The position numbers and the translations under genes are program-made. Shown piece after piece: positions 6,022-30,649 of a stretch of DNA of 53,633 bases. Source of the stretch: a virus; the IMG/VR virus record IMGVR_UViG_3300034039_000013, positions 1-53,633 of that record; one strand, written 5' to 3'. The notes beneath the pieces are model-generated. The model did no database searches. It saw only the letters and a list, made by a program, of their open reading frames with translations, and was not told where the DNA came from. Every line of letters begins with the position of its first letter. The first letter of the stretch is position 1.

Positions 6022-6069
6022 CAATGCTAACGTAACTGCCAATGCTAAACTAACAGAGGAGCATTCATT

Positions 6070-6792: not shown

Positions 6793-6802
6793 CAAGCACT
6801 TC

Positions 6803-6829
6803 GGCGGGCTTACCGCCCGCCGTATTTCT
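6803..6829 (+). terminator. GC-rich hairpin, terminator-like
   Basis: A perfect 7-bp stem of only G and C (GGCGGGC, loop TTACC, GCCCGCC) is followed by GTATTTCT, a weak T-tract. It sits 11 bases after the stop of the preceding gene and 28 bases before the polymerase start. It may be a leaky terminator, or a stabilising 3' structure that lowers polymerase expression relative to the upstream gene. Confidence 0.5.
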
Positions 6830-6849
6830 GTAGAGATTGGGAGATCATT

Positions 6850-11595: not shown

Positions 11596-11608
11596 TGGGA
11601 GGCACACC

Positions 11609-14862: not shown

Positions 14863-14863
14863 C

Positions 14864-16462: not shown

Positions 16463-16830
16463 TATCTGGCCTCGGAATCTGAGCGGTTAAAATCGTTTAT
16501 GCAGGTTTTATAGTATTCTGCCACCTCATAATAGTATTTTAACAGATTCCGTATCCTGGCCAAGTTCTTAGACAGTGTTTCGTAGTCCTTTGGGGTCAGA
16601 GAAATCCAATAAGCTCCGTGCCCGTCTCTAGTTACAGTGGGGTTAATCTCTCCAAGCAAAACGTTAGGAGGTGAAGGCGGTGGTGGGCATTCAATCTTTA
16701 CTTTTATCGGAACTTCGACTGGACTCTTTACTGGCGAATTCTTGAAAAGAGTCGAACACCCGCTTAGTAGCAGAGCGGATGCGACGAGTGATGAGACCAG
16801 GTTTCTTTTTGACAAGCTCAGCAAAATCAT
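16462..16830 (-). CDS. Outer-membrane spanin lipoprotein (Rz1-like)
   Basis: This 122-residue protein has a signal peptide with lipobox LLSGC (Cys about residue 25), followed by a proline-rich stretch (CPPPPSPP), as in o-spanins. The start lies inside the i-spanin gene, overlapping it by 140 bases in another frame, the classical Rz/Rz1 arrangement. It is longer than lambda Rz1 (60 aa), with a C-terminal helical extension. It should pair with the i-spanin across the periplasm and fuse the two membranes in the last step of lysis, which indicates a Gram-negative host. Confidence 0.85.
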   Translation of the reverse strand: MILLSLSKRNLVSSLVASALLLSGCSTLFKNSPVKSPVEVPIKVKIECPPPPSPPNVLLGEINPTVTRDGHGAYWISLTPKDYETLSKNLARIRNLLKYYYEVAEYYKTCINDFNRSDSEAR

Positions 16831-17125
16831 GATCCTCGAACAGTTTTGATAGCCTATCTACCTCAGCATGAGCAGAGTATAGCCTTTTGTTCAATTCTAT
16901 CACCCTTCTCTCTGCTTTTGCAGCGCGTTGTTTGGCCTCTCTAGCCTCTTTTTCCAGCTTTTTTAAAATCTCGGATTGCTTCTGATTTTCCTTTACAGCT
17001 TCCTCGTACTTGGCCCGCCACTGCCCTATCTCCTTCTCTAGCTTACTGACTTGGTAGGCTTTATACCCTAGGAACCCTACTACTGTTAGTACTACTGCCA
17101 GTATGCCGTAAAGCTTTAAATTCAT
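16691..17125 (-). CDS. Inner-membrane spanin (Rz-like)
   Basis: This 144-residue protein has an N-terminal membrane anchor (about residues 5-23), then a long charged coiled coil (KLEKEIGQW through about residue 95) and a short basic C-terminal part, as expected of a type II i-spanin. The o-spanin reading frame begins within its last third. It lies directly after the holin candidate, with a 3-base gap. The combination of topology, coiled coil and embedded lipoprotein gene makes the call firm despite the low sequence conservation of spanins. Confidence 0.86.
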   Translation of the reverse strand: MNLKLYGILAVVLTVVGFLGYKAYQVSKLEKEIGQWRAKYEEAVKENQKQSEILKKLEKEAREAKQRAAKAERRVIELNKRLYSAHAEVDRLSKLFEDHDFAELVKKKPGLITRRIRSATKRVFDSFQEFASKESSRSSDKSKD

Positions 17126-17128
17126 CCT

Positions 17129-17446
17129 TTACTTGCCCACCTTAGAAGATACAGACTTAGCGGCCATAGCCCCTACGCTGTTAGCTATGTAACCAAGACC
17201 AAATGCGTTGAGCGATGTCAACTCGCCCATTTGGTACAAGATAACGAAACCGACTACTGCTCCGATTGTTGTAACGATGATTGAGTACCGGTTGTCCAGA
17301 AGGTATGCCTTAAAAGAGTTGTATTTATGCTTTCTTTCGTCTTTCTGAAAGGCTATGAAGTCCTGTATCGTGTACGATAGCAGGCCAAGTGCCATAAGTA
17401 CTAACGGGTGGGAGAAGAATGTTACAAACAGGTCAGTCAGGTTCAT
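17129..17446 (-). CDS. Putative holin
   Basis: This 105-residue protein has at least two hydrophobic segments (about 10-30 and 55-75, a third possible at 78-97) separated by a charged loop (FQKDERKHK) and ending in a basic tail. Size, topology and location between the DUF5675-like gene and the spanins fit a holin. The start overlaps the upstream stop as ATGA. No sequence family is assigned, so the call rests on topology and context. Confidence 0.7.
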   Translation of the reverse strand: MNLTDLFVTFFSHPLVLMALGLLSYTIQDFIAFQKDERKHKYNSFKAYLLDNRYSIIVTTIGAVVGFVILYQMGELTSLNAFGLGYIANSVGAMAAKSVSSKVGK

Positions 17447-17958
17447 CTCAGCTTGGCACCTTTTGTTGTGACGATATTCAGGTATTTTATATCTTCTTGT
17501 CGTATATAAGAAAGGATTTTACCTACAGCTTTCCTAGAGTCTGCGACACCTAGGTCTAATTGCCCACCCTTAGATTTGTTAGCCAAAAGTTTCCTGCTCA
17601 TTCCGAATGCTATACACCCCTGCAACTGGTTAACAAAGTTGGCAGGGTGAATTAAACAGGCAAACCTGTCTAAACCTGCCTTTCGATCCTGGCTATTCTT
17701 GTATACATTTAGAGCGGGGTTTACCAGAGCAAAGGTGTCACCAAATTTATCAGACTGGAAAGGTTCTAGGGAATACAGCCCGTCTGGTATGCAAGATTTA
17801 TAAGGGCGATTGTGGTTCCAAGGCTGTTCTAAAGAGTAAAAGGCTTGGTTGTTAATGATAACAACCCCTTCTGTACGGTCAGGGGCGTAAGAGAATCGAG
17901 TAAGGGTAAGAATCTTACCCTTATTCAACAACTTCCTCAGTAATTCCGTCATCGTCAT
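17443..17958 (-). CDS. DUF5675 family protein in lysis cassette
   Basis: This protein of about 171 residues matches the DUF5675 pattern: an N-terminal strand (TLTRFSYAPDRTEG), then EQPW, CIPDGLY, and the hallmark IHPAN followed by LQGCIAFG. These proteins occur in phages, often close to lysis genes. The conserved HPAN...GC block makes it a candidate cell-wall enzyme, but I do not know a proven activity. No classical endolysin is recognisable elsewhere in the phage's own late operon. The start overlaps the previous gene by 38 bases. A downstream TTG near codon 12 with a GAGGAAG ribosome binding site is an alternative. Confidence 0.78.
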   Translation of the reverse strand: MTMTELLRKLLNKGKILTLTRFSYAPDRTEGVVIINNQAFYSLEQPWNHNRPYKSCIPDGLYSLEPFQSDKFGDTFALVNPALNVYKNSQDRKAGLDRFACLIHPANFVNQLQGCIAFGMSRKLLANKSKGGQLDLGVADSRKAVGKILSYIRQEDIKYLNIVTTKGAKLR

Positions 17959-18202
17959 CTTTCTTTGCTTCCGCAGCTACGCTGGCTTCAGCCATCTTAG
18001 CCAACTGCCCAGGTACGCAGGCTGTTTCTCCGGTAAGTAGCGACATAGCAAACGAGCAGCACTCTTGCCATGCTTGATAGTCCGCCATCGTAGCAGGCTT
18101 AAACGGGGGCGCTACTCCAGGTTTATTTAGGAACTCTAGGAGGTTGTGGCCGATGCGTTTGGTGGCCTCTAGAGCCGATTCGTTCTTGCTTTTTTCTGTC
18201 AT
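17921..18202 (-). CDS. Hypothetical protein, 93 aa
   Basis: This small protein has no recognised domain. It has a helical N-terminal two-thirds and an acidic C-terminal tail (DDDDGITEEVVE). A strong AGGAG ribosome binding site lies 8 bases before the ATG. It overlaps the next gene by 38 bases and the preceding small membrane protein in a different frame. Its position at the start of the lysis block suggests a lysis or tail accessory, but this is only context. Confidence 0.7.
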   Translation of the reverse strand: MTEKSKNESALEATKRIGHNLLEFLNKPGVAPPFKPATMADYQAWQECCSFAMSLLTGETACVPGQLAKMAEASVAAEAKKDDDDGITEEVVE

Positions 18203-18296
18203 TCTTGTTTCTCCTGTAAATATAAATAGTGAATGCTAAATGCACCAAGGAAATTGCTATTAGTATAGCAACTGCTGTGAGTAGCATACTACGCAT
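18123..18296 (-). CDS. Short single-pass membrane protein, 57 aa
   Basis: This short reading frame begins at an ATG that overlaps the end of the upstream tail gene and has GAGG 4 bases before it. It encodes a hydrophobic segment of about 20 residues (MLLTAVAILIAISLVHLAF), followed by a basic tail (YRRNKNDRKK), so the C-terminus would be cytoplasmic. The 3' third overlaps the next gene in another frame. It fills an otherwise unexplained 86-base gap at the start of the lysis block. It could be a pinholin, antiholin or lysis regulator. It is too short for certainty. Confidence 0.5.
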   Translation of the reverse strand: MRSMLLTAVAILIAISLVHLAFTIYIYRRNKNDRKKQERIGSRGHQTHRPQPPRVPK

Positions 18297-18822
18297 TTGC
18301 CTCAGCGTTCAAGCTATAAGTGGCAGAATCCAATACTGCTCCGCCGTTTGGTCTAACTTCAATAAGGAGGTCGCAGTTTTTAGCTGTACCTGATGTGGCT
18401 GTAAGTGACCATGTAGGGTTAGTGGAGATGGACAGCCAAGTACCAAGCGTGCCAGACGGGGTTGTGCCTGACTGTAAGGTAGCTCTCACCTCATAGCTAG
18501 ATCCAAGACCGCTTTGTGTAGGGGCTGCCCAGTTTTCAAGTACGGAGGTATTACCGTTTTTGTCTTGTACGACGGTACCGTCGTCCCTAAAGGTAACGCC
18601 AGCCGTAGCTGTGGTTAAAGAGAAGGCGATGATGCTGCCGCCGTTAAACGACACAACGGTACTTTGTCCTCCGCCTGCACCTGGAGGCCAATATGTCACC
18701 CAAATGCCGGACTCTCTTCTCTTTATTTCACCTATGTCTAGCTGCCAAGCAGCAGACTGTCGGTGTTTAGGAGTATAAAGGTAAGTCCAAGCTCCCCCAG
18801 ACCTTACTTTAAGTATAGCCAT
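18289..18822 (-). CDS. Tail-associated protein, beta-rich
   Basis: This is a protein of about 177 residues. I chose the ATG at 18822 because AGAGGG lies just before it, overlapping the previous stop. The N-terminus (VRSGGAWTYLYTPKH) and the beta-rich, Ser/Thr/Gly-rich remainder (WAAPTQSGLGSSYEVRATL) resemble small tail-tip or fibre-associated proteins, often found after the fibre genes of siphoviruses. No catalytic motif is visible. It could decorate the tail tip or act in host binding. Confidence 0.68.
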   Translation of the reverse strand: MAILKVRSGGAWTYLYTPKHRQSAAWQLDIGEIKRRESGIWVTYWPPGAGGGQSTVVSFNGGSIIAFSLTTATAGVTFRDDGTVVQDKNGNTSVLENWAAPTQSGLGSSYEVRATLQSGTTPSGTLGTWLSISTNPTWSLTATSGTAKNCDLLIEVRPNGGAVLDSATYSLNAEANA

Positions 18823-18830
18823 AATGCCCT

Positions 18831-19196
18831 CTAATCGTGATAGTTTCCCCACATACAGTGCAACAACTCGTGCCCCAAGGTCAAAGTGGCGTCATCATCC
18901 ACCTTTTTAACAGGTGTTATGAAGATTACACATCTTCCATCTTCGCCTCTTCCCGCGAAACCTTTTAGGTTTCCGTTGGTAGGTACTTTCTTTCCGTACT
19001 TTTCATAGAGGCTGTAAAGAGTCTTCTGGTCAACCATTTTGACCTCGACAACCCCTTTATAGAAATAGGGGTTTTCTAGGCCGTCTATACGTACCTTATT
19101 GGTTAACCTTGAACTGTAGAAGTACAGAATAGCTGCCGCTAAAACTATTAACGACAGCGTATATGCAGTTTTAGTATGTCGGGACTGTGATGACAT
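18831..19196 (-). CDS. Membrane-anchored HExxH zincin-like protein
   Basis: This 121-residue protein is taken from the ATG at 19196, which has AAGG 8 bases upstream. A GTG at 19205 is an alternative. It has one N-terminal membrane segment (about residues 11-30) and an outer domain that ends in a zinc-metallopeptidase motif, HELLH followed by CMWGNYHD (His109, Glu110, His113, His120), with the motif only 8 residues from the C-terminus. A third His 7 residues after the second resembles, with one residue difference in spacing, the metzincin HExxHxxGxxH pattern. The substrate is unknown. It could act on cell wall or virion proteins in the periplasm. Confidence 0.7.
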   Translation of the reverse strand: MSSQSRHTKTAYTLSLIVLAAAILYFYSSRLTNKVRIDGLENPYFYKGVVEVKMVDQKTLYSLYEKYGKKVPTNGNLKGFAGRGEDGRCVIFITPVKKVDDDATLTLGHELLHCMWGNYHD

Positions 19197-19392
19197 ACTG
19201 CACACCTTCTGCTTCGTCTTTAGTTACAGCAGAAACCCTAACCTTCCACACTGGTGAGCCTTCCTGAGGTTCTTGATAAAGCTGCACGCTTTGCAAAGAA
19301 ATCTCTGGATGTAGGCTCAAGAACGAATCCAATTCTTGCTCTATAGTAGAGCACAAAGTCTTTAGATTCGTGGTTAATTCTGTGATATTCAT
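19171..19392 (-). CDS. Small protein following tail fibre (copy C, intact)
   Basis: This 73-residue protein has a strong AGGAGGG ribosome binding site 10 bases before the ATG. Its N-terminal half (LKTLCSTIEQELDSFL) aligns with the small proteins starting at 25160 (LKDLKSTIEEAVAGF) and 19561 (IKTLNAAVVASL), so three paralogues exist, each directly after a copy or fragment of the same tail protein. This one is complete and leads into the zincin-like gene, so it probably marks the original gene order. A fibre chaperone or assembly factor is a reasonable but unproven guess. Confidence 0.7.
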   Translation of the reverse strand: MNITELTTNLKTLCSTIEQELDSFLSLHPEISLQSVQLYQEPQEGSPVWKVRVSAVTKDEAEGVQYVITVPTY

Positions 19393-19427
19393 ATTACCAT
19401 TACCCTCCTATATATAGGTTGATTACA

Positions 19428-19500
19428 TTATATGCCGGATCCACTCTTTGTCCAAGCAAAGGTTACGGTATCCGTATCAGTGACGGTGACGGTGACGTCA
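19428..19500 (-). pseudogene. C-terminal relic of a third tail-protein copy (copy C)
   Basis: Read on the - strand, the last 23 codons before the TAA at 19430-19428 encode VTVTVTD then TVTFAWTKSG, nearly the same as the end of the tail protein at 25208-26215 (VTVTVTD...TVTFTWTKSG). No start or upstream domain is attached. A TAG interrupts the frame at about 19507. It is therefore the 3' remnant of a tail-protein gene whose body is missing at this place. It is followed by the intact small gene at 19392. Confidence 0.75.
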
Positions 19501-19561
19501 GGCTAGCAACTACAGCCGCGTTAAGTGTTTTAATTGCTTCGGTTGCAGTTTGTATCGACAT
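19463..19561 (-). pseudogene. Truncated small fibre-associated protein (copy B)
   Basis: The ATG at 19561 has a good GGAGGA ribosome binding site. The first 21 residues (SIQTATEAIKTLNAAVVASL) align with the two paralogous small proteins. The last 11 residues are the out-of-frame reading of the copy C tail-protein relic. The gene is therefore cut short by a recombination junction near 19495-19507. A 32-residue peptide may still be made. Confidence 0.6.
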
Positions 19562-19577
19562 TGGTGTGTCCTCCAAG

Positions 19578-20483
19578 TTAAATGAGCGGGTCTTCGCCCA
19601 ACCAGTCAAAATGCACATCGCCAGAGTCCGTCGCGCTAAGCGCAGGGTTGACAGCATCGGTCACTGTCACAGTTACGGTAGCCCATGCTGACGAGCTAGC
19701 GCCTGATGGCGTACTTGCATCCGCAGAACAAGTTGGTGTAGCAGACGTTGTGTTGTAAATCGCAATATCTGAAGGCGTTGGAGTTCCGTTCTTAGTCGTA
19801 GGTCCGATGCTCCACTGATAATTGACAGGATGCGGAGTAGCGCCCTTAACAAAATACAACGTCACACTTTGCGGACGAGAGATATTTCCGCCGCCAGTTC
19901 TAGTACCATTCGTCGGGACATATCGTATGGCATAAAGCTCCCCGGGTTGTGTAGCGCCAGTGTACACAGGGGATGGCGGTGTGTACGTCGCCCCAGACGT
20001 TGACGAGCTACCGGGTTCTAGCCCCTCATCCCATGCAAATGAGGCCGTACAAGTTTTCGTTATAACAATCCCAGTCTGGATATCAGTCAATTGCAACTGC
20101 ACCTGATACGTGCGAATGTTAAATGGACCTAACGCTGGTGTGGCAATACTACAATACTCGCTCGTTGCACCGGTCAATGTGCCATCGGTATCACCGCCGA
20201 CAATCGACCAATTCCACGTCAATGGGGGTTTATACCCATTCTCCAAAACGTAATCGGGCATAATAGCAATAGACAAAACCTCTGTCGTATTTGTCCACTT
20301 AGCGTGATTTTTCAGGCTCACACTTTTAAGCGTCGTAGCTTTGCCAGCGTGAGCAAATAGGCCGCCTAAATCCGTTCCAGAAGAATTACGAAAGCCGGTG
20401 ACAGGGTAGATAACATTCCAGGTGTAAAAGGCATTGGCGAAGGGAAAGCGACGGCGCTTCTGAAAGATAAGAATACGGAGCAT
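19578..20483 (-). CDS. Tail receptor-type protein, copy B, 5'-truncated
   Basis: This is a paralogue of the tail protein at 25208-26215. The two share SGTDLG / AGADLG, LFAHAGKATTLKS, ENGYKPPL-WNWSI, TGATQPGELYAIR and VNYQWSIG in the same order, with beta-rich Ig-like repeats. The similarity begins at about 20390. The first 30 codons of the open frame (20483-20391) are instead the antisense of an exonuclease fragment, and about 50 N-terminal residues seen in copy A are missing. No convincing ribosome binding site precedes the nominal start. It is probably a silent or chimeric copy. The C-terminus also differs from copy A (ends EDPLI rather than TKSGD). Confidence 0.65.
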   Translation of the reverse strand: MLRILIFQKRRRFPFANAFYTWNVIYPVTGFRNSSGTDLGGLFAHAGKATTLKSVSLKNHAKWTNTTEVLSIAIMPDYVLENGYKPPLTWNWSIVGGDTDGTLTGATSEYCSIATPALGPFNIRTYQVQLQLTDIQTGIVITKTCTASFAWDEGLEPGSSSTSGATYTPPSPVYTGATQPGELYAIRYVPTNGTRTGGGNISRPQSVTLYFVKGATPHPVNYQWSIGPTTKNGTPTPSDIAIYNTTSATPTCSADASTPSGASSSAWATVTVTVTDAVNPALSATDSGDVHFDWLGEDPLI

Positions 20484-20720
20484 GAAATGTACACCGCTGT
20501 CCTTGATGCTTACATCGAGGACGCCTTTGTCAACTGGCCTTGTGAGGTTGATGAGGGTGTTATAGACTCTGAAGATGACCTGAATACCAATTTGACGATG
20601 TTGTATCTTTTAAGGAGTGAAGACGATGAATGGGAAAGCCCATTCAACAGACAAGCAAGCCCCTGGCAAAGCGACGTTGGTTTTTATTTCCAGCAAAAAA
20701 GATGCCAGGATCGCGGTTGA
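20391..20720 (+). pseudogene. C-terminal fragment of a 5'-3' exonuclease (FEN/T7 gp6-like)
   Basis: In the + frame, starting at about 20394, the sequence reads GDRVDNIPGVKGIGEGKAT, the helix-3-turn-helix DNA-binding signature of FEN-type phage exonucleases. It is followed by the helical region MYTAVLDAYI and the end-of-family pattern LTMLYLLRSEDDEWE. There is a stop in frame at 20367 and no start codon before 20487, so the catalytic N-terminal two-thirds are missing. It is overlapped on the other strand by the aberrant 5' end of tail copy B. This marks the left edge of the foreign block. Confidence 0.8.
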
Positions 20721-20976
20721 TGTGTGCAAGCAATTGGTGCGGCAGCATGACGCCTATTTTCTTAGCTTCAAGCCGCAAGTGTACAGCATCATCGAGGTTA
20801 TGGCCTATGCAGCAGACAGGGAAAGCCCGCTTGTGTGCATACCCTCGACGCCTCCAGAGGGGGCAGACAAGGTGCTGGAGTATGAACATATCAACCTTGA
20901 CCTGTTTTGCTACGACGATGTTGTCCACCTTTTCCAACAAGTTGAAACAAAACTGGGGCTAACCCATGGACAGTAA
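20626..20976 (+). CDS. Hypothetical protein, 116 aa
   Basis: The start at 20626 is supported by AAGGAG 8 bases upstream. A GTG at 20617 would be too close to it. The gene overlaps the exonuclease fragment by 95 bases and the sigma-like gene by 11. I do not recognise a family. The alternating beta/alpha pattern (ATLVFISSKKDARIAVDVCKQL, then SPLVCIPSTPP) suggests a small Rossmann-like or toprim-like fold. It is the first intact gene of the foreign block. Confidence 0.68.
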   Translation: MNGKAHSTDKQAPGKATLVFISSKKDARIAVDVCKQLVRQHDAYFLSFKPQVYSIIEVMAYAADRESPLVCIPSTPPEGADKVLEYEHINLDLFCYDDVVHLFQQVETKLGLTHGQ

Positions 20977-21508
20977 GTTTGCTGAGATTGACGACCTCCT
21001 GAAGCACTTTGCCAGCCGCTATTGCGACGGCGATGAAGAATTGTTTGATAAACTTTACCAGCAGGCCGCCCTGCTCTACCTTGACAAGAGAAGGTCTTTC
21101 GATGAATCTAAGGGGAAAACATCCACCTGGCTTTACGCTTGGTTGCCCCACGCCCTTGTGTCATACAAGAAACAGATGCGGCGGCTTGTTACAGTGTCAG
21201 ATTATAAGGCAAGAGCTATGAGCGATGAAGAACAAGACTTGGCCAAGCATATCAGCATAACCCATGACAACGCCGACACGCTGCCAGGCAAAGAGGACGA
21301 AGGAAGGGACGACCAGATATGCGCCAACGAAATGATGGCCATAGCGAAGCAGGTTCTCTCGCCAAGGGAATACAGGTGCCTTGTGCTGCACTACCTGTAC
21401 GACATGCCGAAGACCGTTATTGGCGAAGTTGAGAATGTGTCCGGCGAGAGGGTGCGGCAGATTATCGAAAACGCGCTGAAGAAAATTAGAAAACAGGCGG
21501 GGGTGTAG
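20966..21508 (+). CDS. Sigma-70-like RNA polymerase sigma factor
   Basis: This 180-residue protein has region 2 near residues 36-58 (YLDKRRSFDESKG and STWLYAWL, matching the FD..KG.F.TYLY pattern) and region 4 near 132-178 (LSPREYRCLVLHYLYDMP, then the helix-turn-helix GEVENVSGERVRQIIENALKKIRK). The linker between is short and charged. It should redirect host RNA polymerase to specific promoters, probably the late genes of the phage from which this block came. No such factor is seen in the rest of the window. Whether its promoters exist in this genome is unknown. Confidence 0.82.
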   Translation: MDSKFAEIDDLLKHFASRYCDGDEELFDKLYQQAALLYLDKRRSFDESKGKTSTWLYAWLPHALVSYKKQMRRLVTVSDYKARAMSDEEQDLAKHISITHDNADTLPGKEDEGRDDQICANEMMAIAKQVLSPREYRCLVLHYLYDMPKTVIGEVENVSGERVRQIIENALKKIRKQAGV

Positions 21509-21510
21509 CG

Positions 21511-22248
21511 GTGAGGCTCTACTACGAAACCAAGCAAGGCCGCCTTTACCAAGGCGACTGCCTGGAAGTTATGCAGAAACTTGCTGACGATGGTGTTAAA
21601 GTGGATATGGTATTGACCGATCCGCCGTATGGGACGACCGCTTGTAAATGGGATTCTGTTATCCCATTGGAGCCAATGTGGGAATGTATAAAGAGATTGA
21701 CAAAGGAGCAGTCGGCCATTGTTATGACCGCAAGCCAACCCTTCACAAGCCTTTTAGGATCTTCAAATATCAAATTGTTACGTTATTCGTGGGTGTGGCA
21801 GAAATCTGCAGCTACAGGACATTTGAACGCAAAACGGATGCCCATGAAAAACCATGAGGATGTGTTGGTCTTTTATGCAAAGCAGCCAACGTATAACCCG
21901 CAAGGATTAACCGATTTCAAGAAAACAGTTAGACGTGGCGGTAACGGCGGCTGCTATGGTGACAGCGGCAAAGAGAACTTCCAAGAAAAAACTGGATACC
22001 CGAGGACGGTATTAAAAATAAACAGCGAGGGCAAAACCGTTCACCCTACACAAAAACCGGTCGCATTGATGGAATATTTAATCAAAACATACACCAACGA
22101 AGGTGATTTGATTCTGGACTTTACGATCGGCTCAGGAACAACAGCTATAGCCGCTGAAAGAACAGGGCGCAAATGGATAGGCATAGAGTTGTCGGAAGAA
22201 TACTGTGAGGTTGCCAAGCAAAGACTTGAGAAGGAGGCGCAACAATGA
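21511..22248 (+). CDS. DNA methyltransferase, adenine-type (beta class)
   Basis: This 245-residue site-specific methyltransferase starts at GTG, with GGGGG shortly upstream. The catalytic motif IV TDPPYG (Asp37-Tyr40) comes before the SAM-binding motif I LDFTIGSGTT (about 202-211), the order of the beta class. DPPY indicates N6-adenine rather than N4-cytosine as target. HPTQKP before motif I is also typical. No cognate restriction nuclease is adjacent, although an HNH gene lies two genes on. Likely roles are protection from host restriction or regulation. The recognition site cannot be read from the sequence. Confidence 0.9.
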   Translation: MRLYYETKQGRLYQGDCLEVMQKLADDGVKVDMVLTDPPYGTTACKWDSVIPLEPMWECIKRLTKEQSAIVMTASQPFTSLLGSSNIKLLRYSWVWQKSAATGHLNAKRMPMKNHEDVLVFYAKQPTYNPQGLTDFKKTVRRGGNGGCYGDSGKENFQEKTGYPRTVLKINSEGKTVHPTQKPVALMEYLIKTYTNEGDLILDFTIGSGTTAIAAERTGRKWIGIELSEEYCEVAKQRLEKEAQQ

Positions 22249-22439
22249 AGGTGTTAGAAAAGGCAAGGCTACACGCTGAAGACCTAGCATATTACATCCA
22301 GCACAGGGAAAGGCTTGTGCGTAGTGGGCATTCAAAGCTGGACAACATTGACCAGCAAATTGCCGAGGAGCTTACCATCCTTAAAGAAATAGCCGAGGTT
22401 GTTTGCAGGGACTTGGTGAATGAGCAAGACAAGGAATAA
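22245..22439 (+). CDS. Hypothetical protein, 64 aa
   Basis: This short helical, charged protein overlaps the methyltransferase stop as ATGA and the HNH gene by 20 bases. I recognise no domain. It contains a possible helical hairpin (LHAEDLAYYIQHRERLV, then IDQQIAEELTILKEIAEVV). Tight packing and the overlapping junctions suggest a real gene within one transcript. Confidence 0.62.
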   Translation: MKVLEKARLHAEDLAYYIQHRERLVRSGHSKLDNIDQQIAEELTILKEIAEVVCRDLVNEQDKE

Positions 22440-22797
22440 CGGCAGGTGGACAGAAGCAAGGTTTCGGAGTTTCATCATCAGCGCCCTGCGCAAGGCCACC
22501 TACCGCTGGCCACCCAAGGGGGAGGTGGTTAAACAAGCATCCACAGGGAGGGGCAGGTTCCGCTGTGCCATGTGCAAGAAGGACTGCCCCACCTCCCTAC
22601 CAGCAGAGGACGGAGGGAAGCGGATAAGGAACAGGTTTGTGGATCACATAGTGCCAATTGTTGACCCACAAAAAGGCTTTACTACCTATGACGACTGGAT
22701 AGATAGATGCTTTGTGGACAGCGACGGGTTGCAGGTGCTATGCAAATCCTGTCATGATGCGAAAACCCAACAAGAGAGGGAGAGGAGAAAGAAATGA
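22420..22797 (+). CDS. HNH endonuclease
   Basis: This 125-residue protein has a zinc-binding HNH core: FRCAMCKKDC near residue 47, then VDHIVPI (first catalytic His with Asp), then VLCKSCHDAKTQQE (CxxC plus the final His) near 108-121. It is a small free-standing nuclease of the kind found near phage packaging or replication genes. It could be a homing enzyme or a genome-processing nuclease. Its start overlaps the gene before, and its stop overlaps the kinase start as ATGA. Confidence 0.83.
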   Translation: MSKTRNNGRWTEARFRSFIISALRKATYRWPPKGEVVKQASTGRGRFRCAMCKKDCPTSLPAEDGGKRIRNRFVDHIVPIVDPQKGFTTYDDWIDRCFVDSDGLQVLCKSCHDAKTQQERERRKK

Positions 22798-23348
22798 TTG
22801 TTATTCTGAACGGACCGCCGGGGTCAGGCAAGGACACAATAGCAAATGGGCTTCTGAAAGCTGGGGTTGCTCACGCTCCTTTATGCTTCAAAGATGAGTT
22901 GTATATCCAGACGGCCTCTCGCTTCAAGCTAAGCCTTTCTTACTTCATCGCCCTTGCTTCAGACAGAGAGACAAAAGAGGAGCCTTGCCACCTGCTTGGT
23001 GGTATGTCGCCAAGGGAGGCGCTGATAGACACGTCTGAGAGAATCATCAAGCCCAAGAAAGGCAAGGACTACTTTGGGCGAAAGGTGGCCGAGGTTGCTG
23101 CGCAGCGACCACCAGAGGACGTTATCATCATCTCTGACGGTGGCTTCAAGGAGGAAATTGAGCCTCTACTTGAGACGCATCACAGAGTTGTCATCATCCA
23201 CCTGCACCGACCTGGCTGCACTTTTGACGGGGATAGCCGGTCTTACATCAATGTTGGCGGGGCGCATTACGACTGCATAGTAAACGACGGCACCATTGAT
23301 GAGGCAGTTGAGGCAGCTGAAAGAATCATCAGGAGGCATCACGCATGA
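22794..23348 (+). CDS. Deoxynucleoside monophosphate kinase-like P-loop protein
   Basis: This 184-residue protein has Walker A GPPGSGKD at residues 6-13 and the block KPKKGKDYFGRKVAE (about 83-97), followed by VIISDGGF, which together are typical of phage dNMP kinases. These phosphorylate deoxynucleoside monophosphates from degraded host DNA to feed replication. Its start and stop both overlap the neighbouring genes as ATGA. A short sequence at about 24996-25072 encodes a similar GKDFLGR block. Confidence 0.83.
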   Translation: MIVILNGPPGSGKDTIANGLLKAGVAHAPLCFKDELYIQTASRFKLSLSYFIALASDRETKEEPCHLLGGMSPREALIDTSERIIKPKKGKDYFGRKVAEVAAQRPPEDVIIISDGGFKEEIEPLLETHHRVVIIHLHRPGCTFDGDSRSYINVGGAHYDCIVNDGTIDEAVEAAERIIRRHHA

Positions 23349-23683
23349 GAATGAAAGACGACGTTTTGTTTGACAGAGATGGTGTGAATGCACAGCCAGA
23401 ACTTTTTTACGGTTTGTGGATTGTAGCGGAGACATATAGGGATCTTGGCATTACCGGCAAGAGGGCTTGTGTAACGTCTGTTATGGACGGTAAGCACAGC
23501 CCCAACAGCCTGCATTACAAAGGGTTTGCTTTTGATATAAGGACATGGGCGGATGAACATGGCACACAGATGAGCGACAAGACGAAGTGGGCTTTCCGCA
23601 ACCTTCTTGCTGAACGCTTAGGCGATGATTGGGATGTTGTGGTGGAGAGAAGCCACATACATGTGGAGTATGACCCGCAGTGA
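23345..23683 (+). CDS. M15-family peptidase, endolysin-like
   Basis: This 112-residue zinc peptidase has the M15 signature SLHYKGFAFDIR (ligands His57 and Asp64) and ERSHIHVEYD (Glu101 as likely catalytic residue, His106 as third ligand). Such single-domain proteins cut D-Ala-D-Ala or L-Ala-D-Glu type links in peptidoglycan and often serve as phage endolysins. It is followed immediately by a small membrane protein, as in a lysis pair. It has no signal peptide, so export would need a holin. All metal ligands are present, so it looks active. Confidence 0.87.
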   Translation: MRMKDDVLFDRDGVNAQPELFYGLWIVAETYRDLGITGKRACVTSVMDGKHSPNSLHYKGFAFDIRTWADEHGTQMSDKTKWAFRNLLAERLGDDWDVVVERSHIHVEYDPQ

Positions 23684-23925
23684 TGTTAACAATCTTCGCA
23701 GTTACATTCATCTATGTTGCGCTGAAAGCCATGCAACAGCTTCAGGTGGTCAACTATGAATTCGCGAGGGTGCTCCCTGTTTCTTTCGGCATGGCGCTGT
23801 GCGAGGTAACAATTATGCTCTCTGTTGTCAATGACGTTGGTTTCTGGGGCTTTATCCCCATGGGCCTTGGTGGTGGCCTTGGTGCCATGCTAAGCATGTA
23901 CCTACATAAACGGATGAACGGATGA
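23683..23925 (+). CDS. Small membrane protein, holin candidate
   Basis: This protein of about 80 residues has two to three hydrophobic segments (about 1-20, 28-48 and 52-72) and a short basic C-terminus (HKRMNG). It starts at the ATG at 23683, or at the GTG at 23680 that overlaps the peptidase stop. Immediate coupling to an M15 peptidase suggests a holin, but some phages keep related membrane proteins of unknown role here. Sequence alone does not decide. Confidence 0.65.
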   Translation: MLTIFAVTFIYVALKAMQQLQVVNYEFARVLPVSFGMALCEVTIMLSVVNDVGFWGFIPMGLGGGLGAMLSMYLHKRMNG

Positions 23926-23938
23926 GCAGGGGGGAGCA

Positions 23939-24487
23939 ATGAAAATATTGCACATTGACATTGAGACAGCACCTAATGTCAGCTACACATGGGGCCTTTT
24001 CAACCAGAACGTAGCTATTGACCAGATAGTTGAGCCTGGCTACACTTTGTGCTTCGCCGCAAAATGGCACAAGAGCCGCAAGAAAGATGTCATGTTTCAT
24101 TCCATCTGGCATGACGGCAAGAGAGGGATGATTGAGGCCGCCGCAGATTTACTGTGCGAGGCGGATGCTGTTGTCCACTACAACGGAAAGAGCTTTGATA
24201 TACCCACATTATGCAAGGACTTCCTGCTGGAGCTTGGCAAACCACCCGCTCCCTTCCACCAGATTGACCTGCTACACGTTGTGAGGAAGCGTTTTAGGTT
24301 TGCGAGTAACAAGCTGGACTTTGTTGCCCGTCAACTTGGCATTGGTAAGAAACTGCCGCATAAGGGCATGGACCTTTGGCGAGGCTGTATGCATGGCAAC
24401 CAGAAAGACCAGAGGGTTATGGAGAGGTATAACATTCAGGACGTGTTGTTGCTTGAAAACTATACGAAAGATTGTTGCCGTGGATAA
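23939..24487 (+). CDS. DnaQ-like exonuclease, N-terminal part (frameshifted gene)
   Basis: This 182-residue reading frame has RNase H-like DEDD exonuclease motifs: HIDIETAPN (Asp7, Glu9), VVHYNGKSFDIP near residue 80, and RYNIQDVLLLE near 161-171. A GGGGGAG ribosome binding site precedes the ATG. At about 24470 the frame leaves the expected path and ends with four unrelated residues, while the -1 frame continues with LPWINKHPN and a zinc ribbon (next feature). Adding one T restores a single protein of about 255 residues. The exonuclease motifs are all upstream of the break, so some activity could remain. Confidence 0.8.
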   Translation: MKILHIDIETAPNVSYTWGLFNQNVAIDQIVEPGYTLCFAAKWHKSRKKDVMFHSIWHDGKRGMIEAAADLLCEADAVVHYNGKSFDIPTLCKDFLLELGKPPAPFHQIDLLHVVRKRFRFASNKLDFVARQLGIGKKLPHKGMDLWRGCMHGNQKDQRVMERYNIQDVLLLENYTKDCCRG

Positions 24488-24702
24488 ATAAGCACCCCAA
24501 CCACGGACTGTACACCGACGAAGATAGACCAGTATGCACAAATTGTGGCAGCAGGCATGTTGTTAAGAATGGTGTGGAGAGGCTGGCAACACAAGCATAC
24601 CAGCGATACCGTTGCCAGAAGTGCGGAACGCCTTTGAGAGGCCGAACCACTATACTCACCAAAGAGAAGCGTGCTACCATCTTAACCCAGAGTAAACTGT
24701 GA
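24472..24702 (+). CDS. Zinc-ribbon C-terminal part of the frameshifted exonuclease
   Basis: This frame has no proper start (TTG at 24472) or ribosome binding site. It encodes LPWINKHPNHGLY, then a zinc ribbon with CTNCG and CQKCG separated by about 29 residues. Related phage exonucleases carry this same ribbon directly after their last catalytic motif, so this is the displaced C-terminal domain of the gene at 23939 and not an independent gene. A loss of one base around 24471-24476 explains the split. No typical slippery heptamer is present there. Confidence 0.72.
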   Translation: MLPWINKHPNHGLYTDEDRPVCTNCGSRHVVKNGVERLATQAYQRYRCQKCGTPLRGRTTILTKEKRATILTQSKL

Positions 24703-24709
24703 GGGCATT

Positions 24710-24904
24710 ATGAAGAAACAGCAGGAAGTGAACAAGGTTGTGCTAAGACTACTTGTGGATGCGCTGGGACAGCCTGTGGTGACAGTTGACGTGGACAATG
24801 ATATAGCCCTTGATGTCATAGCGGCCTCACTGGCTAAGGCCGCAGCCGCCTTGCTTGGTGAAATTGAAGACAGCGAAGGCATACAGCCTACCGTAAGTCA
24901 TTAG
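24710..24904 (+). CDS. Hypothetical protein, 64 aa
   Basis: This small protein has GAGGG shortly before the ATG and starts 7 bases after the zinc-ribbon frame. No family is recognised. It is mildly acidic and helical, with an alanine-rich stretch (SLAKAAAALLGEI). It is the last protein gene of the foreign block, just before the tRNA. Confidence 0.58.
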   Translation: MKKQQEVNKVVLRLLVDALGQPVVTVDVDNDIALDVIAASLAKAAAALLGEIEDSEGIQPTVSH

Positions 24905-24914
24905 ACTAGGTTTT

Positions 24915-24990
24915 GCCGCAGTAGCACAATTGGCAGTGCAGCTGATTTGTACTCAGAAGGTTGCAGGTTCGACTCCTGCCTGCGGCACCA
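24915..24990 (+). tRNA. tRNA-Thr (anticodon TGT)
   Basis: A full cloverleaf of 76 bases can be folded. The acceptor stem GCCGCAG pairs with CTGCGGC, the D stem GCAC pairs with GTGC, and the T stem GCAGG pairs with CCTGC around TTCGACT. The anticodon loop TTTGTAC gives anticodon TGT (reads ACA). CCA is encoded. The anticodon stem has one G-A mismatch at its outer pair (27-43). It lies near the right edge of the foreign block. Phage tRNAs usually supply codons rare in the host. Confidence 0.85.
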
Positions 24991-24995
24991 TATCC

Positions 24996-25072
24996 CGCAA
25001 AGGGAAAGACTTTCTTGGGCGTAGCCTTGCTGACTATGTAAACAAGCATGGGGAAGGCAAGACATTCATTAT
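24996..25072 (+). other. Coding-like fragment between tRNA and the block edge
   Basis: In one + frame this stretch reads KGKDFLGRSLADYV and then GEGKTFII, which resembles the GKDYFGR...VIIISD block of the kinase at 22794. It has no start and ends where the antisense of the small protein copy A begins (about 25070-25078). It may be a broken fragment of a second kinase gene. The match is short and could be chance. Confidence 0.3.
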
Positions 25073-25207
25073 CTGGGTTATCCGCGATAAAGCCCGCAAC
25101 GGCTTCCTCGATAGTGGATTTAAGGTCTTTCAATACGTCTGTTACTATTTGAATAGACATTTTTGTTTCTCCTCTGTTGGTTGACTTTTTAGCTCCACCC
25201 TCCACTC

Positions 25208-26215
25208 TTAGTCTCCACTCTTAGTCCAGGTGAAAGTTACGGTTTCCGTTGCTGTTGCAGACAGGCTCGTATTAACCGCATCTGTGACCGTCACAGTCAC
25301 AGGCGCAGATACAGTTGTCGATGCCAAATCTGGTGTGCCGCTGGTGGCGACGCATTGTGCGCTGCTAGACGTTGCATAGTTCAGCGTCATATCGCTCGGT
25401 GTCGGGGAGCCGGTTTTACTCGATGCGCCAATTGACCACTGATAATTAACGGCGTGCGGTGTGGCTCCGCTGACAAAATACAATTCAACGGTTTGATAGC
25501 GAGAGATCGTGCCGCCATCAACCATAGAGCCGTTTGTCGGCACAAACCGAATGGCGTACAGCTCGCCGGGCTGAGTCGCGCCGGTATAGCGCGTGCTGGG
25601 GGGTGGTGTGGTGCCGGTGCTGCCGCTGCTGGACGTAGCGCCGCCGGGGGACAGCTCAGAATCCCAGACAAACGACACGCTGCATGTGTCTGTCAGCACG
25701 ATGCCGGTGTTAGAATCTGTGAGCTGCAACTGTAGCGTGCATCGCTTAATGGCAAACGGCGCTGTGGCGGGCGCTATCACAGAACAGGTCTCGCTAGTCG
25801 CACCGGACAGCGACAAGTCTGCATCACCGTCAATAATGCTCCAGTTCCACGAAAGCGGCGGTTTATATCCATTCTCCAGTACATATTGCGGCGTTACAGA
25901 TTGGCTCATGCCTACATTCTGGTTCGTCCACTGCGCGTAGTTGAGAAGGTCAACACTCTTTAGCGTCGTCGCCTTGCCCGCATGGGCAAACAGGTTGCCC
26001 AAGTCCGCGCCGGCCGAGTTCAAAAACCCCGTCATAGTATCCGCTTGCGACCCGTAGGTCTGCTCCCACAGGTACATCTGACTACGCGGCGCGTATTTCA
26101 CACCGAGATCCGTCCCTGCGCTGTCATAGTAGTAAGTCGTCTGCGTCAAGCCGCCTTGCCTCACGGCCCAGCGCGTAGTTATATCAACGCCACTGCTGTC
26201 GTAAAACGTACTCAC
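25208..26215 (-). CDS. Tail receptor-type protein, copy A (complete)
   Basis: This 335-residue structural protein has three N-terminal repeats of the form Y/F-x-x-S-x-G-x-D-L (about residues 5, 30 and 65), then Ig-like beta domains rich in Thr, Val and Ser, ending VTVTVTD...TFTWTKSGD. It starts with GTG overlapping the stop of the S74 fibre gene (GTGA). It is the only complete one of three related copies (the others are at 19578 and 19428). Base composition is clearly more GC-rich than the rest of the tail operon. It is probably a receptor-binding or tip protein attached to the fibre. No enzyme motif is visible. Confidence 0.78.
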   Translation of the reverse strand: MSTFYDSSGVDITTRWAVRQGGLTQTTYYYDSAGTDLGVKYAPRSQMYLWEQTYGSQADTMTGFLNSAGADLGNLFAHAGKATTLKSVDLLNYAQWTNQNVGMSQSVTPQYVLENGYKPPLSWNWSIIDGDADLSLSGATSETCSVIAPATAPFAIKRCTLQLQLTDSNTGIVLTDTCSVSFVWDSELSPGGATSSSGSTGTTPPPSTRYTGATQPGELYAIRFVPTNGSMVDGGTISRYQTVELYFVSGATPHAVNYQWSIGASSKTGSPTPSDMTLNYATSSSAQCVATSGTPDLASTTVSAPVTVTVTDAVNTSLSATATETVTFTWTKSGD

Positions 26216-27975
26216 GCCTTCAACTCCTCAATCAGCGCCTCAAGCTCTCTAACTTTTGCCTCAAGTGCCTCAACCTTTGCCGCCAGAACCGCATCAATGT
26301 CCACGGACAGCATCCCATCGACGCCCTCACTTACAGCTTCGGGCAAGACCTCTTGCACTTCTTGCGCGATATAGCCAATTTGGTCTTTTTCGCGCCCAGG
26401 GTCTTTCCAATCGAAAATAGACAGCCGTAAGTTTGCAACTTCAGGCCGAGCAAAACTCCTGACATTGGTTTTCATCCGAAGGTCGGAATAAACCTTGAAG
26501 CCGCCATCAGCCTGCACGCGCTTATTGAAATAGAACTCTGGCCGGTCTGTTAAGAAATGGCAATAGGTGCTATCGCCCGCGCCAATATCGACATAGCCAC
26601 TTGCGGTATTTACGCGGAGATAAGACCGCAGACTTACTCCAACCCCGTTGCTGTCTCTATTCCAGAGCGGCACGCCACTGCCATCTGTCCCGATATAACA
26701 ATCCCTTACGCCATCGCGGCCAAAAAAACTAATATAATTCCAGTCGTTCGGGTCGCCATCCGGCACGCGAAGATTAATTACGCTATCGCCGCCGGCTTGG
26801 ACTGTTATAGCTCCAGTAAAAGTGGCACCGGACAATTTTGCAAACGCAGACGCGTGATAACCATCTAGCAAATCCGCGTCAAGTCCTGAACCAGCGCCGT
26901 CATTGCCAGAGTGCCAGACTTTTTCCCATGGCTGCCAAGTGCCGTTATTTTGACAGCGAATCCACATAGAGTTATTGCGGGGGTCAAAAAACCCCTGCCC
27001 AGCCCACAAAGAAGAATCATAGTTCAGGGTAAAAACGTACCCATCTACAACACCGGAAGGTTTTACAGCACTGGAATAATCTAGGTGGTTTACTTGGAAT
27101 CCTGCAGCCTTAAAATCATTATTGGTGTATGCCCTATGGTTGGTCAAATAATCGTCCGCCAAGGTGTCATGACCATGGCTTGAAAGAGCGAAGCTAGATG
27201 CATGGAAGCCATCCAATGTATCAGCATCAAGACCTGAACCAGGGCCATCATTGCCAGCGTGCCAAACCTGATTTCCGTTTACGGTCAAGCTGCCGGTAAA
27301 ATTAGCTCCAGATAGCTGGGCAAACGCAGTCGAATCCAAACCATCCAAGGTGTCAGCATCAATTGTCGGATTGCTTGCAGTATCGAACCACAAAGAGCCG
27401 TCAGGTACGGCACCTGGGTCTGTAGAAGAGATATAGAACGGGTGAGCAGACTTCAGAGTCTTCCCAGAAATTACAAAATCATTGGAATCGTAATCTAACC
27501 AATCAGTAGCTCCATAAGACTGATCCCAAAACAGAATCCTGTCTGCTCCTGGGGATATGAGATTCTCTATACCAATGTTGCTTACGGTAGTTCCAGACAA
27601 GTCATTAGACGGCCGGATGTACGGGGCTACTTTAGTCCCTCGGTTCAAGACCGGCTTACGAGAGGCTATCACCGTACCGGCGTTAGCAGAATCGTAAGCA
27701 TAACCAAGGTTTAGAGATACTGCCCCAGCAGGGATTACTACTCCCTCAATCTTAGACTTAAACCAAGGCCCTGAGACGTCTGGGCTGACCTGGTAATCGT
27801 CAAAATCGTCGATATTGTTTCCGTCAAACGTAGCTATAGGCGTATCTGTGCCATCAAAGAACACCAACTGCGCCCGAAGGCCAGTAGCAGTGTCTACCCT
27901 AGTCTGCAGCTCCAAAGATGCAGAAACTACTTCTCCGACAGATAAATTTAGATTTGATAATAGTTTATTAGCCAT
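26212..27975 (-). CDS. Tail fibre with C-terminal S74 intramolecular chaperone
   Basis: This is a 587-residue fibre. The N-terminal about 125 residues form a jelly-roll-like domain also found at the C-terminus of the J-like protein encoded next to it. The middle holds repeats of the type HAGNDGPGSGLDADTLDG. The last 90 residues are an S74 autoprocessing chaperone: SDLRMKTNV (Ser497, expected self-cleavage site), DWKDPG, IGYIAQEVQEVLPEAV and a final coiled coil. The chaperone trimerises the fibre and then cuts itself off. The 3' part is GC-richer than the 5' part, which suggests mosaic origin. Confidence 0.88.
   Translation of the reverse strand: MANKLLSNLNLSVGEVVSASLELQTRVDTATGLRAQLVFFDGTDTPIATFDGNNIDDFDDYQVSPDVSGPWFKSKIEGVVIPAGAVSLNLGYAYDSANAGTVIASRKPVLNRGTKVAPYIRPSNDLSGTTVSNIGIENLISPGADRILFWDQSYGATDWLDYDSNDFVISGKTLKSAHPFYISSTDPGAVPDGSLWFDTASNPTIDADTLDGLDSTAFAQLSGANFTGSLTVNGNQVWHAGNDGPGSGLDADTLDGFHASSFALSSHGHDTLADDYLTNHRAYTNNDFKAAGFQVNHLDYSSAVKPSGVVDGYVFTLNYDSSLWAGQGFFDPRNNSMWIRCQNNGTWQPWEKVWHSGNDGAGSGLDADLLDGYHASAFAKLSGATFTGAITVQAGGDSVINLRVPDGDPNDWNYISFFGRDGVRDCYIGTDGSGVPLWNRDSNGVGVSLRSYLRVNTASGYVDIGAGDSTYCHFLTDRPEFYFNKRVQADGGFKVYSDLRMKTNVRSFARPEVANLRLSIFDWKDPGREKDQIGYIAQEVQEVLPEAVSEGVDGMLSVDIDAVLAAKVEALEAKVRELEALIEELKA
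26821..27360 (-). repeat. Degenerate repeats within the fibre gene
   Basis: Three imperfect repeats encode AGNDGPGSGLDADTLDG-FHASSFA-like segments (about 27187-27266 and 26821-26920, with a shorter copy at 27301-27360). At the DNA level the copies at 27215-27265 and 26870-26920 are alike enough to serve as recombination sites. They lie close to where base composition changes along the gene. Confidence 0.6.
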
Positions 27976-27982
27976 CTGTCAC

Positions 27983-30649
27983 CTAAGGTAATTGATAATA
28001 TCCGCCACCACTAGAAGGAGGAGCATACGGCCCCCCTCCGCCTGTAGTATTAGCACTTTCCTCTACAGGGGCTTCTACAGAACCGTCTAATAAGTTCTGG
28101 AAGTCGCCCCACTCTAAGTTAGTATCATCGTCTGGGTCTAAGAATCTGTCACCCCATCCTCCAACCGAGTGCAACACAGTCATCCCTCTATTAAATACTG
28201 GGTACCGCCCATAAAACGTCCCAGACGACACATAAGTTTTGAAAGAAAACCTAACGGCTCCTACAGGTATAAGTATGCCCTCTAATTTCACAGTAGAAAA
28301 CGACCCAGGGGGAGTCTGTGGTGTCGTAGTGGCTGGTGTACCAACAGGGTTACCTACATCATCATAAAACGCAACTTCCAAGTAGGCCCCTGTAGCATTT
28401 ATATTTTGCCAAACCAACGAGCAAGAAACATAATCTCCAGGTATTAACTCGTAAGAAGATAGCCTAAGACCTTTGAAAGACTTGTTAGCCCCGATGATTA
28501 TAGTGTTAGAGTAGACCCGTTGAGATCTCCTAGAAGGTGACACCAAATTATAAGGGCTTTGTCGTTCTCCGTATTCTTCTGCGGTCAACCCTGCTTCTAT
28601 CAATGTACCATTAGTGTCCAGAGTATTCCAAGCTCCCACCTGCCCAGAAGTGTTGATAAGCCTTGCCCACACATAAAGTATCCCTGAGATAGATACTGTA
28701 TAAGATACCTCAGACAATGAAGTGAAATCAGCAGGTACAGGGAACACCTTACTTAACGTGGCGGTATTCCTGTCATTAGAAGTTGAAAAGGTAAACTCTA
28801 CGCTAGCTATGTCTTTATCGTTAACAGAACTTACATCCAAAGTTAACTCTACGCCACCAGACAGCTTTGAATAGGTGATAGGCCCAGGTTGGTCAGGCCC
28901 AGTAGTCTTGGCTGTAACTATCCTATTCACAAGGGTGGCCTTAGCGCCTACCTTCTCCATAGCATTTATCGCAAATACTTCAAAGTCATAAGCTACACCT
29001 TCCTCAAGGACTAAGTACTGAGTTGTTGTGTTCTTGTCAACATCTGTATAGTTCCAAGCCGTGTCTGAAGATCTTTTCCAACGGAGTCTATACCTATCTA
29101 AGTATTGATCGTTTACTGGATCCCACACCAACTTAGCTCTAGGAAGGACTACGCCGTTGGGTGCAGGTAGTATGGCGTCATCCCCAGTATAAAATTGGAA
29201 ATTAGCAGGGGCTGGCATAGCCAAAGGATCGTAATCAATAGATACAGGAACACTAACGTCAGTAGTATACTCAGACAAAGCAACATCCCAAGCAGTCGTC
29301 AACTCTTCGACCAGTGTCAACTCTACGGAGAAGTCTGGGTTTATCGACATCTCTACGACTCTAAATAAAACGTCTGGAAGAGTAGGAGAGGCCAAATTTA
29401 CATTAACCAAAGACTGCACAGATGCCCTGAGTACAGTAGGTTTGCAGACCATTCTCAAAAGTTTCTGCTGTCTAGATTGCTTGAGAAGTATTATTGCTAT
29501 TCGTTGTGCTTGATAGACATCTGTAACACCTTCAAGCTTTATTTCCCTCTGAAATCTGCGCCCATCCTCAGTCTCGTAAGTTGTACTCTTTGCCGGAGGA
29601 AACGTCACACTGTCGTAGCCATCAGACGGCTCAGTATAGGTACCTGAAACATAGTTGTAATAGCTATCTCCTGTTAGGTTGGAACTATATACGAGGTTAC
29701 CTATAATGTCGTCCTCAGTAATAGTAAACTCGGCCACCCCGCCGACTCCTGCCAAAATTCTCCACTTTCCTCCGACATAAACAACCTTACCTAGCATAGT
29801 TTGCAGGATTTTCTCTAGGTTGTTTTTCCTCGAATCTGCTGTAGATAGAGCAATGTTACATTCGTACCGCTTCTGATAAGTCGATCCAGGTGGGATCTCC
29901 TCAAGCTGATCGCAAGCGTTGGCGGCTGCCATCACTGAAGGAAGGTCTATCCTATTGATATCCTCATTGAACCCTACTTCGCTGGTTAAGTAGTGTAAAG
30001 CTATTAGCGCAGGGTTTGTTGTATACTCCCAGGTACTTTGATCTGAAAATCTATGTGTGCCTGAACCGCCTTGTACTGTGCTATCCTTTCTTGGGTCGTA
30101 CACCTTAGCACCGCGCATTATTACAGATACGGACGGCAAAGTTTCCCATTCCTCGTATGTACCGAACCGGATAGCTATATAAGCTACGCCAGTACCCTTG
30201 TGGTTGGAAGTCCACTCAGATGGGTTTGCCCCAGAAATCAAAGGACTGGCAGTTTGAGACTGCGTTCCTGTGTACAATTCATATGTAATATCACGGCCAG
30301 CGTACTTTGGATCAGAAATTGATTTACCGTCTATAATAACGTCATCTATAGCCTCAACTTCGTGCTCACAGAACGCAACTACGTAGTACAGTGCAGATCC
30401 CTTCGTTGTCCAATAAACAAGAGGGCCAGATACTCTGACTTTTCCATATACAACAGACAGCGGGGCGTCAGAATCCCTGACCATCCCTTTCTTAGGAGGA
30501 GTGGTCAAGTCGGTTTTAGGCTGCATACCTTCTATGATGGCATTAAAAGTCACCATCAATATGATTTGGCCTATGACAGCGGCAATAGAAGCATAACCTA
30601 TTGCCGCTGAGGCCGCTGCAAACGCTACTGCTACCGCTGCTTGTGGCAT
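27983..30649 (-). CDS. Tail tip attachment protein (J-like)
   Basis: This 888-residue protein resembles the central tail-tip hub of lambda-like siphoviruses. It has an Ala-rich hydrophobic N-terminus (residues 1-40) and a conserved body (PLSVVYGKVRVSGP, then a region ending in MLGKVVYVGGKWRI). Fibronectin type III-like segments (about 475-700) follow, and then a C-terminal jelly-roll domain. It follows the DUF2163-like and NlpC/P60-like genes, as in many siphoviruses. It should close the tail tube and carry fibres that contact the receptor. Confidence 0.85.
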   Translation of the reverse strand: MPQAAVAVAFAAASAAIGYASIAAVIGQIILMVTFNAIIEGMQPKTDLTTPPKKGMVRDSDAPLSVVYGKVRVSGPLVYWTTKGSALYYVVAFCEHEVEAIDDVIIDGKSISDPKYAGRDITYELYTGTQSQTASPLISGANPSEWTSNHKGTGVAYIAIRFGTYEEWETLPSVSVIMRGAKVYDPRKDSTVQGGSGTHRFSDQSTWEYTTNPALIALHYLTSEVGFNEDINRIDLPSVMAAANACDQLEEIPPGSTYQKRYECNIALSTADSRKNNLEKILQTMLGKVVYVGGKWRILAGVGGVAEFTITEDDIIGNLVYSSNLTGDSYYNYVSGTYTEPSDGYDSVTFPPAKSTTYETEDGRRFQREIKLEGVTDVYQAQRIAIILLKQSRQQKLLRMVCKPTVLRASVQSLVNVNLASPTLPDVLFRVVEMSINPDFSVELTLVEELTTAWDVALSEYTTDVSVPVSIDYDPLAMPAPANFQFYTGDDAILPAPNGVVLPRAKLVWDPVNDQYLDRYRLRWKRSSDTAWNYTDVDKNTTTQYLVLEEGVAYDFEVFAINAMEKVGAKATLVNRIVTAKTTGPDQPGPITYSKLSGGVELTLDVSSVNDKDIASVEFTFSTSNDRNTATLSKVFPVPADFTSLSEVSYTVSISGILYVWARLINTSGQVGAWNTLDTNGTLIEAGLTAEEYGERQSPYNLVSPSRRSQRVYSNTIIIGANKSFKGLRLSSYELIPGDYVSCSLVWQNINATGAYLEVAFYDDVGNPVGTPATTTPQTPPGSFSTVKLEGILIPVGAVRFSFKTYVSSGTFYGRYPVFNRGMTVLHSVGGWGDRFLDPDDDTNLEWGDFQNLLDGSVEAPVEESANTTGGGGPYAPPSSGGGYYQLP

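Follow-up and report, generated by a model that had tools for sequence, protein, structure and literature searches.

A segment of about 4.7 kb at positions 20391 to 25075 of the viral contig analysed here was probably, though by no means certainly, acquired through illegitimate recombination, which would have brought part of the early operon of a Zobellviridae-like phage into a tandem array of adhesin genes. The gene order, the truncation of a FEN-type nuclease gene and of an adhesin gene (A′) which meet at one point, the foreign composition of the segment (the block) and the common lineage of its flanks are observed directly in the contig. This contig, called the window below, is the whole of an IMG/VR record of 53,633 bases which is classed as linear and is a metagenomic fragment; since the record ends within a terminase open reading frame (52371-53627), which is cut by the contig end, the window represents a partial genome.

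The early genes of the window (79-15346) lie on the plus strand, and they are followed on the minus strand by lysis and fibre genes (15312-30649) and from there onward by tail and head genes. The portal, protease, capsid, tape measure and terminase proteins match those of SHOU24 and K478 (Vibrio) and of Lana (Pseudomonas) at approximately 25-40% identity, and the primase, helicase, polymerase and SbcC/D proteins have matches in the same three phages over the same range of identities. The homologous terminase, portal, capsid, tape measure, primase, helicase and polymerase, together with the same convergent arrangement, indicate that the backbone flanking the block is a single distant lineage, that of the SHOU24/Lanavirus-like siphophages. 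In SHOU24, K478 and Lana the early genes run toward a late operon which has the tail fibre gene last, and the window follows the same plan. Complete SHOU24/Lanavirus genomes measure 78-88 kb, while the window is a fragment of 53.6 kb, and the tail region in SHOU24, K478 and Lana lacks any such block, whereas the window carries additional fibre, adhesin and lysis genes at 15.3-30 kb. Both flanks match in the K478b, SHOU24 and Lana records, in which the sole relative of the block genes is a weak methyltransferase match (27%). The possibility that the block is a native early segment of the SHOU24 lineage which moved within the genome was discarded, as a tblastn search gave no relative in SHOU24 for its exonuclease, HNH endonuclease or sigma factor. 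The tail fibre of the window (26212-27975), which contains the internal repeats D1 and D6, ends in a Peptidase_S74 chaperone domain and overlaps the neighbouring adhesin-like gene A by four bases.

All convincing genes in the late-region flanks (15312-20401 and 25100-53627) are on the minus strand, and all block genes from 20487 to 24904 are on the plus strand. The initial annotation, which located the block accurately, had described it as lying on the opposite strand to all surrounding genes; this is the case for the late region, but not for the early genes at 79-15346, which are also on the plus strand. The gene list given there, including the FEN fragment, agrees with the profile matches. 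The block opens with the C-terminal fragment of a FEN-type 5′ nuclease (20390-20652, in a frame which extends to 20720) and a small ORF that belongs to no family (20617-20976), followed by a sigma-70 family factor with regions 2 and 4 (20966-21508; Pfam 8e-7 and 1.6e-10, TIGR02937 above the cut-off), an N6/N4 DNA methyltransferase (21511-22248; N6_N4 methylase 8.5e-32) with 69% amino acid identity to that of Aeromonas phage 4_L372X, a small ORF with no assigned function (22245-22439), an HNH endonuclease (22420-22797; phrog_3106 4e-17, 48% to PA11 gp19) and a deoxynucleoside monophosphate kinase (22794-23348; phrog_139 2e-41, relatives L039-L044). There follow an M15/hedgehog-fold peptidase (23345-23683; Pfam HH_signal 5e-6), a holin-like membrane protein (23680-23925; phrog_7045 6e-9), a DnaQ/RNase-H-like exonuclease with a zinc ribbon (23939-24702; phrog_403 1e-59, in two frames), a further small ORF with no assigned function (24710-24904) and a tRNA-Thr (TGT) gene (24915-24990; Rfam 69 bits), all of these features being on the plus strand.

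When the M15-like protein is aligned to chains with the hedgehog/M15 fold, the motifs SxHxxGxAxDI and HxH are kept and the metal ligands are retained, and the protein is likely to be an endolysin. The phage relatives of this 112-residue peptidase that were found by tblastn are restricted to Microviridae and Salinibacter phages. The backbone has a 5′-nuclease domain in its polymerase, a further exonuclease gene at 10386-11129 and spanins, which bears out the proposal that the block duplicates functions already present in the genome. The block exonuclease is broken by a frameshift at approximately 24467-24487, in an A-run near 24467. A programmed frameshift was rejected because the relatives checked encode the protein in one ORF, and mutation or decay, or else a homopolymer error, is the preferred reading of the break. 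The one exception among those relatives is L006 (1880-2599), which has an in-frame TAA at exonuclease residue 152, where the near-identical L004, L005, L007 and L008 have a glutamate codon. An integrated mobile element or satellite was also considered as the identity of the block and rejected, as the block contains no integrase or transposase and there are no direct repeats or att sites at its edges.

The left edge of the block is fixed within approximately 10 bp. The match of the FEN frame (KAGDRVDNIPGVKGIGEGKATALL...) is confined to positions 294-372 of the 542 in phrog_107 (E 3e-15); the fragment is the C-terminal third of the protein, the N-terminal portion, where the catalytic acidic residues lie, is missing, and, to judge from what is left, it cannot be a working nuclease. 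Its best phage matches are Lentibacter ICBM2, CRP-5 and MEP401, which include Cobavirinae. On the opposite strand, A′ (19578-20401, with an ORF to 20483) is a paralogue of the adhesin-like tail gene A (25208-26215, minus strand), and its N-terminal residues, approximately 60 in number, are gone at the edge. The alignment of A′ to A (alignment A1), which has 59% identity overall, starts only at TGFRNSSGTDLGG; followed backward, the similarity reaches TGF and then stops, and the residues of the A′ ORF that lie ahead of this point are encoded antisense to the FEN frame. The homology of A′ ends and that of FEN starts within approximately 10 bp, at 20390-20401, and the left edge is a sharp fusion in the assembled DNA by which both genes are cut. 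The junction disregards gene boundaries and presumably involved little or no homology, as is characteristic of illegitimate recombination.

The right edge, which probably lies at approximately 24991-25075, is softer and less certain than the left. The small gene S1 (MSIQIVTDVLKDLKSTIEEAVAGFIADNPDN), of which the N-terminal part is present (25060-25163, minus strand), starts at 25163 and resembles S3, an intact member of the small S family (19392-19171, minus strand), over approximately 33 residues; beyond these its frame passes antisense through the tRNA to a stop at 24906. Because a natural gene is unlikely to run antisense through a tRNA, S1 was probably truncated, with the cut falling between 24991 and 25075. 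The claim that both edges cut through coding sequence is thus borne out at the left, where FEN and A′ are truncated at 20390-20401, and is only probable at the right. The fuzziness of the right edge would suit a history with a single junction at 20391, in which the block and the right arm (20391-53633) form one genome and the left arm (1-20391) comes from another phage related to it and was attached either by recombination or during assembly; the resulting order of plus-strand early genes and a tRNA facing oppositely directed tail genes is a convergent layout of the normal kind, of which CW02, T5S1 and L003 are examples. Such a history is unlikely, however, given that S1 runs into the tRNA and that both arms match the same distant phages, and the compositional data given below also weigh against it.

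Adhesin genes are found on both sides of the block, A′ to the left and A to the right, in agreement with the duplication of tail genes proposed earlier; no homologue of A was found among the phages, viral contigs and genome contigs searched. An older scar at approximately 19.5 kb (19431-19561, minus strand, repeat D3) fuses a second S gene, S2, by its N-terminus to what is left of the C-terminus of a further, third A copy: 20 residues from the beginning of the S copy (MSIQTATEAIKTL...) are followed by a change of frame and then by the last residues of the A copy (VTVTVTDTDTVTFAWTKSG). It follows that a tandem A-S array stood here and had already undergone rearrangement. The number of promoter-like matches in the region is not above chance. 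The best match (TGGACA-16-TATAAT, 11/12, at 19454-19427 on the minus strand) lies within the third adhesin remnant, immediately ahead of S3 and the lysis genes, and might serve as a promoter for the lysis genes, which the block cuts off from the late operon. A more ambitious view, to which we assign a low probability, is that the A-S array is a recurrent landing site for the modules of unrelated phages, and that the block is working cargo which is transcribed against the late operon and is equipped with a sigma factor, a methyltransferase, a lysis pair and a tRNA of its own.

The block has a GC content of 0.493 (GC3 0.57), compared to 0.455-0.461 (GC3 0.42-0.50) for the early and the tail and head genes, and it had been singled out as visibly GC-richer. 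This sign does not discriminate, as adhesin A, at 0.53-0.56, is richer still than the block, and GC alone was for this reason rejected as evidence of foreignness. Dinucleotide relative-abundance distances (x1000) range from 25 to 90 among the early, lysis, fibre, tail and head segments, and from 116 to 142 between the block and each of these segments. Among 47 comparable gene runs, 45 have a codon usage less extreme than that of the block. Equally strong deviations in composition or codon usage are seen in part of the tape-measure gene and at the terminase/portal end, and the compositional signals of a foreign block are moderate. The same measures count against a single junction at 20391, because the two arms are near-identical in dinucleotide signature (early-head 34, lysis-tail 25) while the block differs from both, and because the tail and head genes, with which the block would belong, are the genes most distant from it in codon usage.

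Gene order is a stronger sign of foreign origin than composition. The order FEN, HNH endonuclease (phrog_3106) and exonuclease (phrog_403) is found in PA11, CW02, T5S1, MW202697, G002 and L003, which are mostly Zobellviridae or PA11-like; it is also found in StenR_269, and is thus not exclusive to the Zobellviridae. In L003, CW02 and T5S1 this module runs, like the block, toward convergence with late genes on the minus strand. The block shares with the early module of the Zobellviridae (PA11, CW02 and T5S1) and of MW202697 a FEN nuclease, an HNH endonuclease and a zinc-ribbon DnaQ-like exonuclease on one strand, upstream of the convergence. It differs from that module in its extra intervening genes (sigma factor, methyltransferase, deoxynucleoside monophosphate kinase, M15 peptidase and holin), in the absence of primase and polymerase, in the truncation of FEN and in identities of just 37-52% for the exonuclease and 45-48% for the HNH endonuclease. 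Among the neighbours typical of the Zobellviridae (primase/helicase, family-A polymerase and a homologous sigma factor), the block has no primase or polymerase, and no Zobellviridae counterpart of its sigma factor, M15 peptidase or kinase was found by tblastn, so the block does not simply reproduce an early operon that is already known. The sigma factor gave zero matches in a tblastn search of the phage records, and it was rejected as a tracer of the donor because it has no relatives.

In the exonuclease tree the block copy is nearest to L002/L003, at 60% identity, and falls in no well-supported group; this is the best exonuclease relative, and no close, donor-grade relative of the block was found. 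The DNA-level donor search yielded nothing near identity, and its distant mode gave mainly methyltransferase matches. The donor can be described from these comparisons only as Zobellviridae-like. The foreign origin put forward in the initial annotation is upheld by composition, by gene order and by the lack of a counterpart in the SHOU24, K478 and Lana relatives, whereas its suggestion that the capture could be recent is not, the best relatives of the block being just 40-70% identical. If the capture only looked recent, the block might be an early-type module long resident in the late region, as part of an old and stable architecture of the genus, with which the intactness of the majority of its ORFs and the occurrence of an exonuclease of the same family downstream of the tail genes in the siphophage G003 would be compatible. 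This is very improbable, as the composition of the block has not been ameliorated, both boundary genes remain fragments, and the G003 exonuclease shares its strand with the tail genes. G003 (L023/L051-L053), a siphophage contig in which a J-like tail fibre homologue is followed downstream on the same strand by the phrog_403 exonuclease and an endolysin, provides an independent example of this exonuclease in the vicinity of tail genes.

Neither the same junction nor an empty site was found in the viral and genome contigs searched with adhesin A, alignment A1, tail protein J, SbcC and primase as queries, in collections which may omit near-identical records and in which only close relatives of A or J are detectable. 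A portal search gave one contig, L027/G001, which ends at gene 31062-31673, short of the block region. The failure to find an independent copy in the contigs searched, the origin of the window as an IMG/VR contig, the position of the junctions inside genes and the frameshift in the exonuclease would all be compatible with a chimera of metagenomic assembly or amplification, in which a block from another phage in the sample was misjoined at both ends. Such a chimera would require two independent errors, leading back into the same phage in almost the same position and orientation. The flanks share no repeat longer than 12 bp; their longest exact match, of that length, lies inside the A/A′ similarity, and it is too short to cause a misjoin by an assembler. 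Real recombination is favoured over a chimera because of the two-junction geometry, the shared backbone signature and the absence of repeats on the scale relevant to assemblers, and we consider the chimera to be about as doubtful as the single junction at 20391.

It is accepted that phage genomes can become mosaic through illegitimate recombination over a few bases. In the insertion that we propose, a Zobellviridae-like podophage would have been the source of approximately 4.7 kb, from the 3′ half of its early operon, which a SHOU24/Lanavirus-like siphophage acquired by non-homologous recombination, possibly during co-infection of a cell by the two phages. The captured piece, which would span from inside the FEN gene to just beyond the tRNA, would have been inserted in reverse into the tandem A-S array at the distal end of the siphophage late operon, with the loss of the S1 C-terminus and the A′ N-terminus. 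The insertion may have been tolerated because its site lies between non-essential adhesin copies and the lysis genes, with a low fitness cost if the A copies are redundant, and some of the cargo (methyltransferase, kinase, lysis pair and tRNA) may have been kept as morons with their own promoter. The failure to find a second genome with the junction, or an empty site, in the contigs searched, the fuzzy right edge, the metagenomic and fragmentary nature of the record, the presence of other atypical segments and the three block genes for which tblastn gave no Zobellviridae counterpart count against this insertion. Illegitimate and homeologous recombination made contributions of similar size to phage mosaicism in one analysis (PMC2327257), and the whole Pseudomonas aeruginosa phage Ab31 is a mosaic made by illegitimate recombination (PMC3974807). 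In mosaics of the Ab31 type (PMC3974807), as in the block, modules of unrelated phages are joined without long homology; unlike those mosaics, the present case has a short early-gene piece inverted inside a late operon, with at least one junction within genes.

The type of event is already well known as ordinary mosaicism of phage genomes, while this instance of it is a sharp one between phages of different morphotypes. By the time an illegitimate joint is seen in a phage, selection has in most cases already trimmed it to gene boundaries. If the joint were a chimera, it would serve as a warning for studies of mosaicism that use metagenomic contigs. If it is real, a joint which lies inside two genes and which connects a siphophage backbone to early genes of a podophage type would offer a rare chance to see the raw product of such recombination directly, and it would imply that tandem adhesin copies can tolerate insertions of kilobase size.
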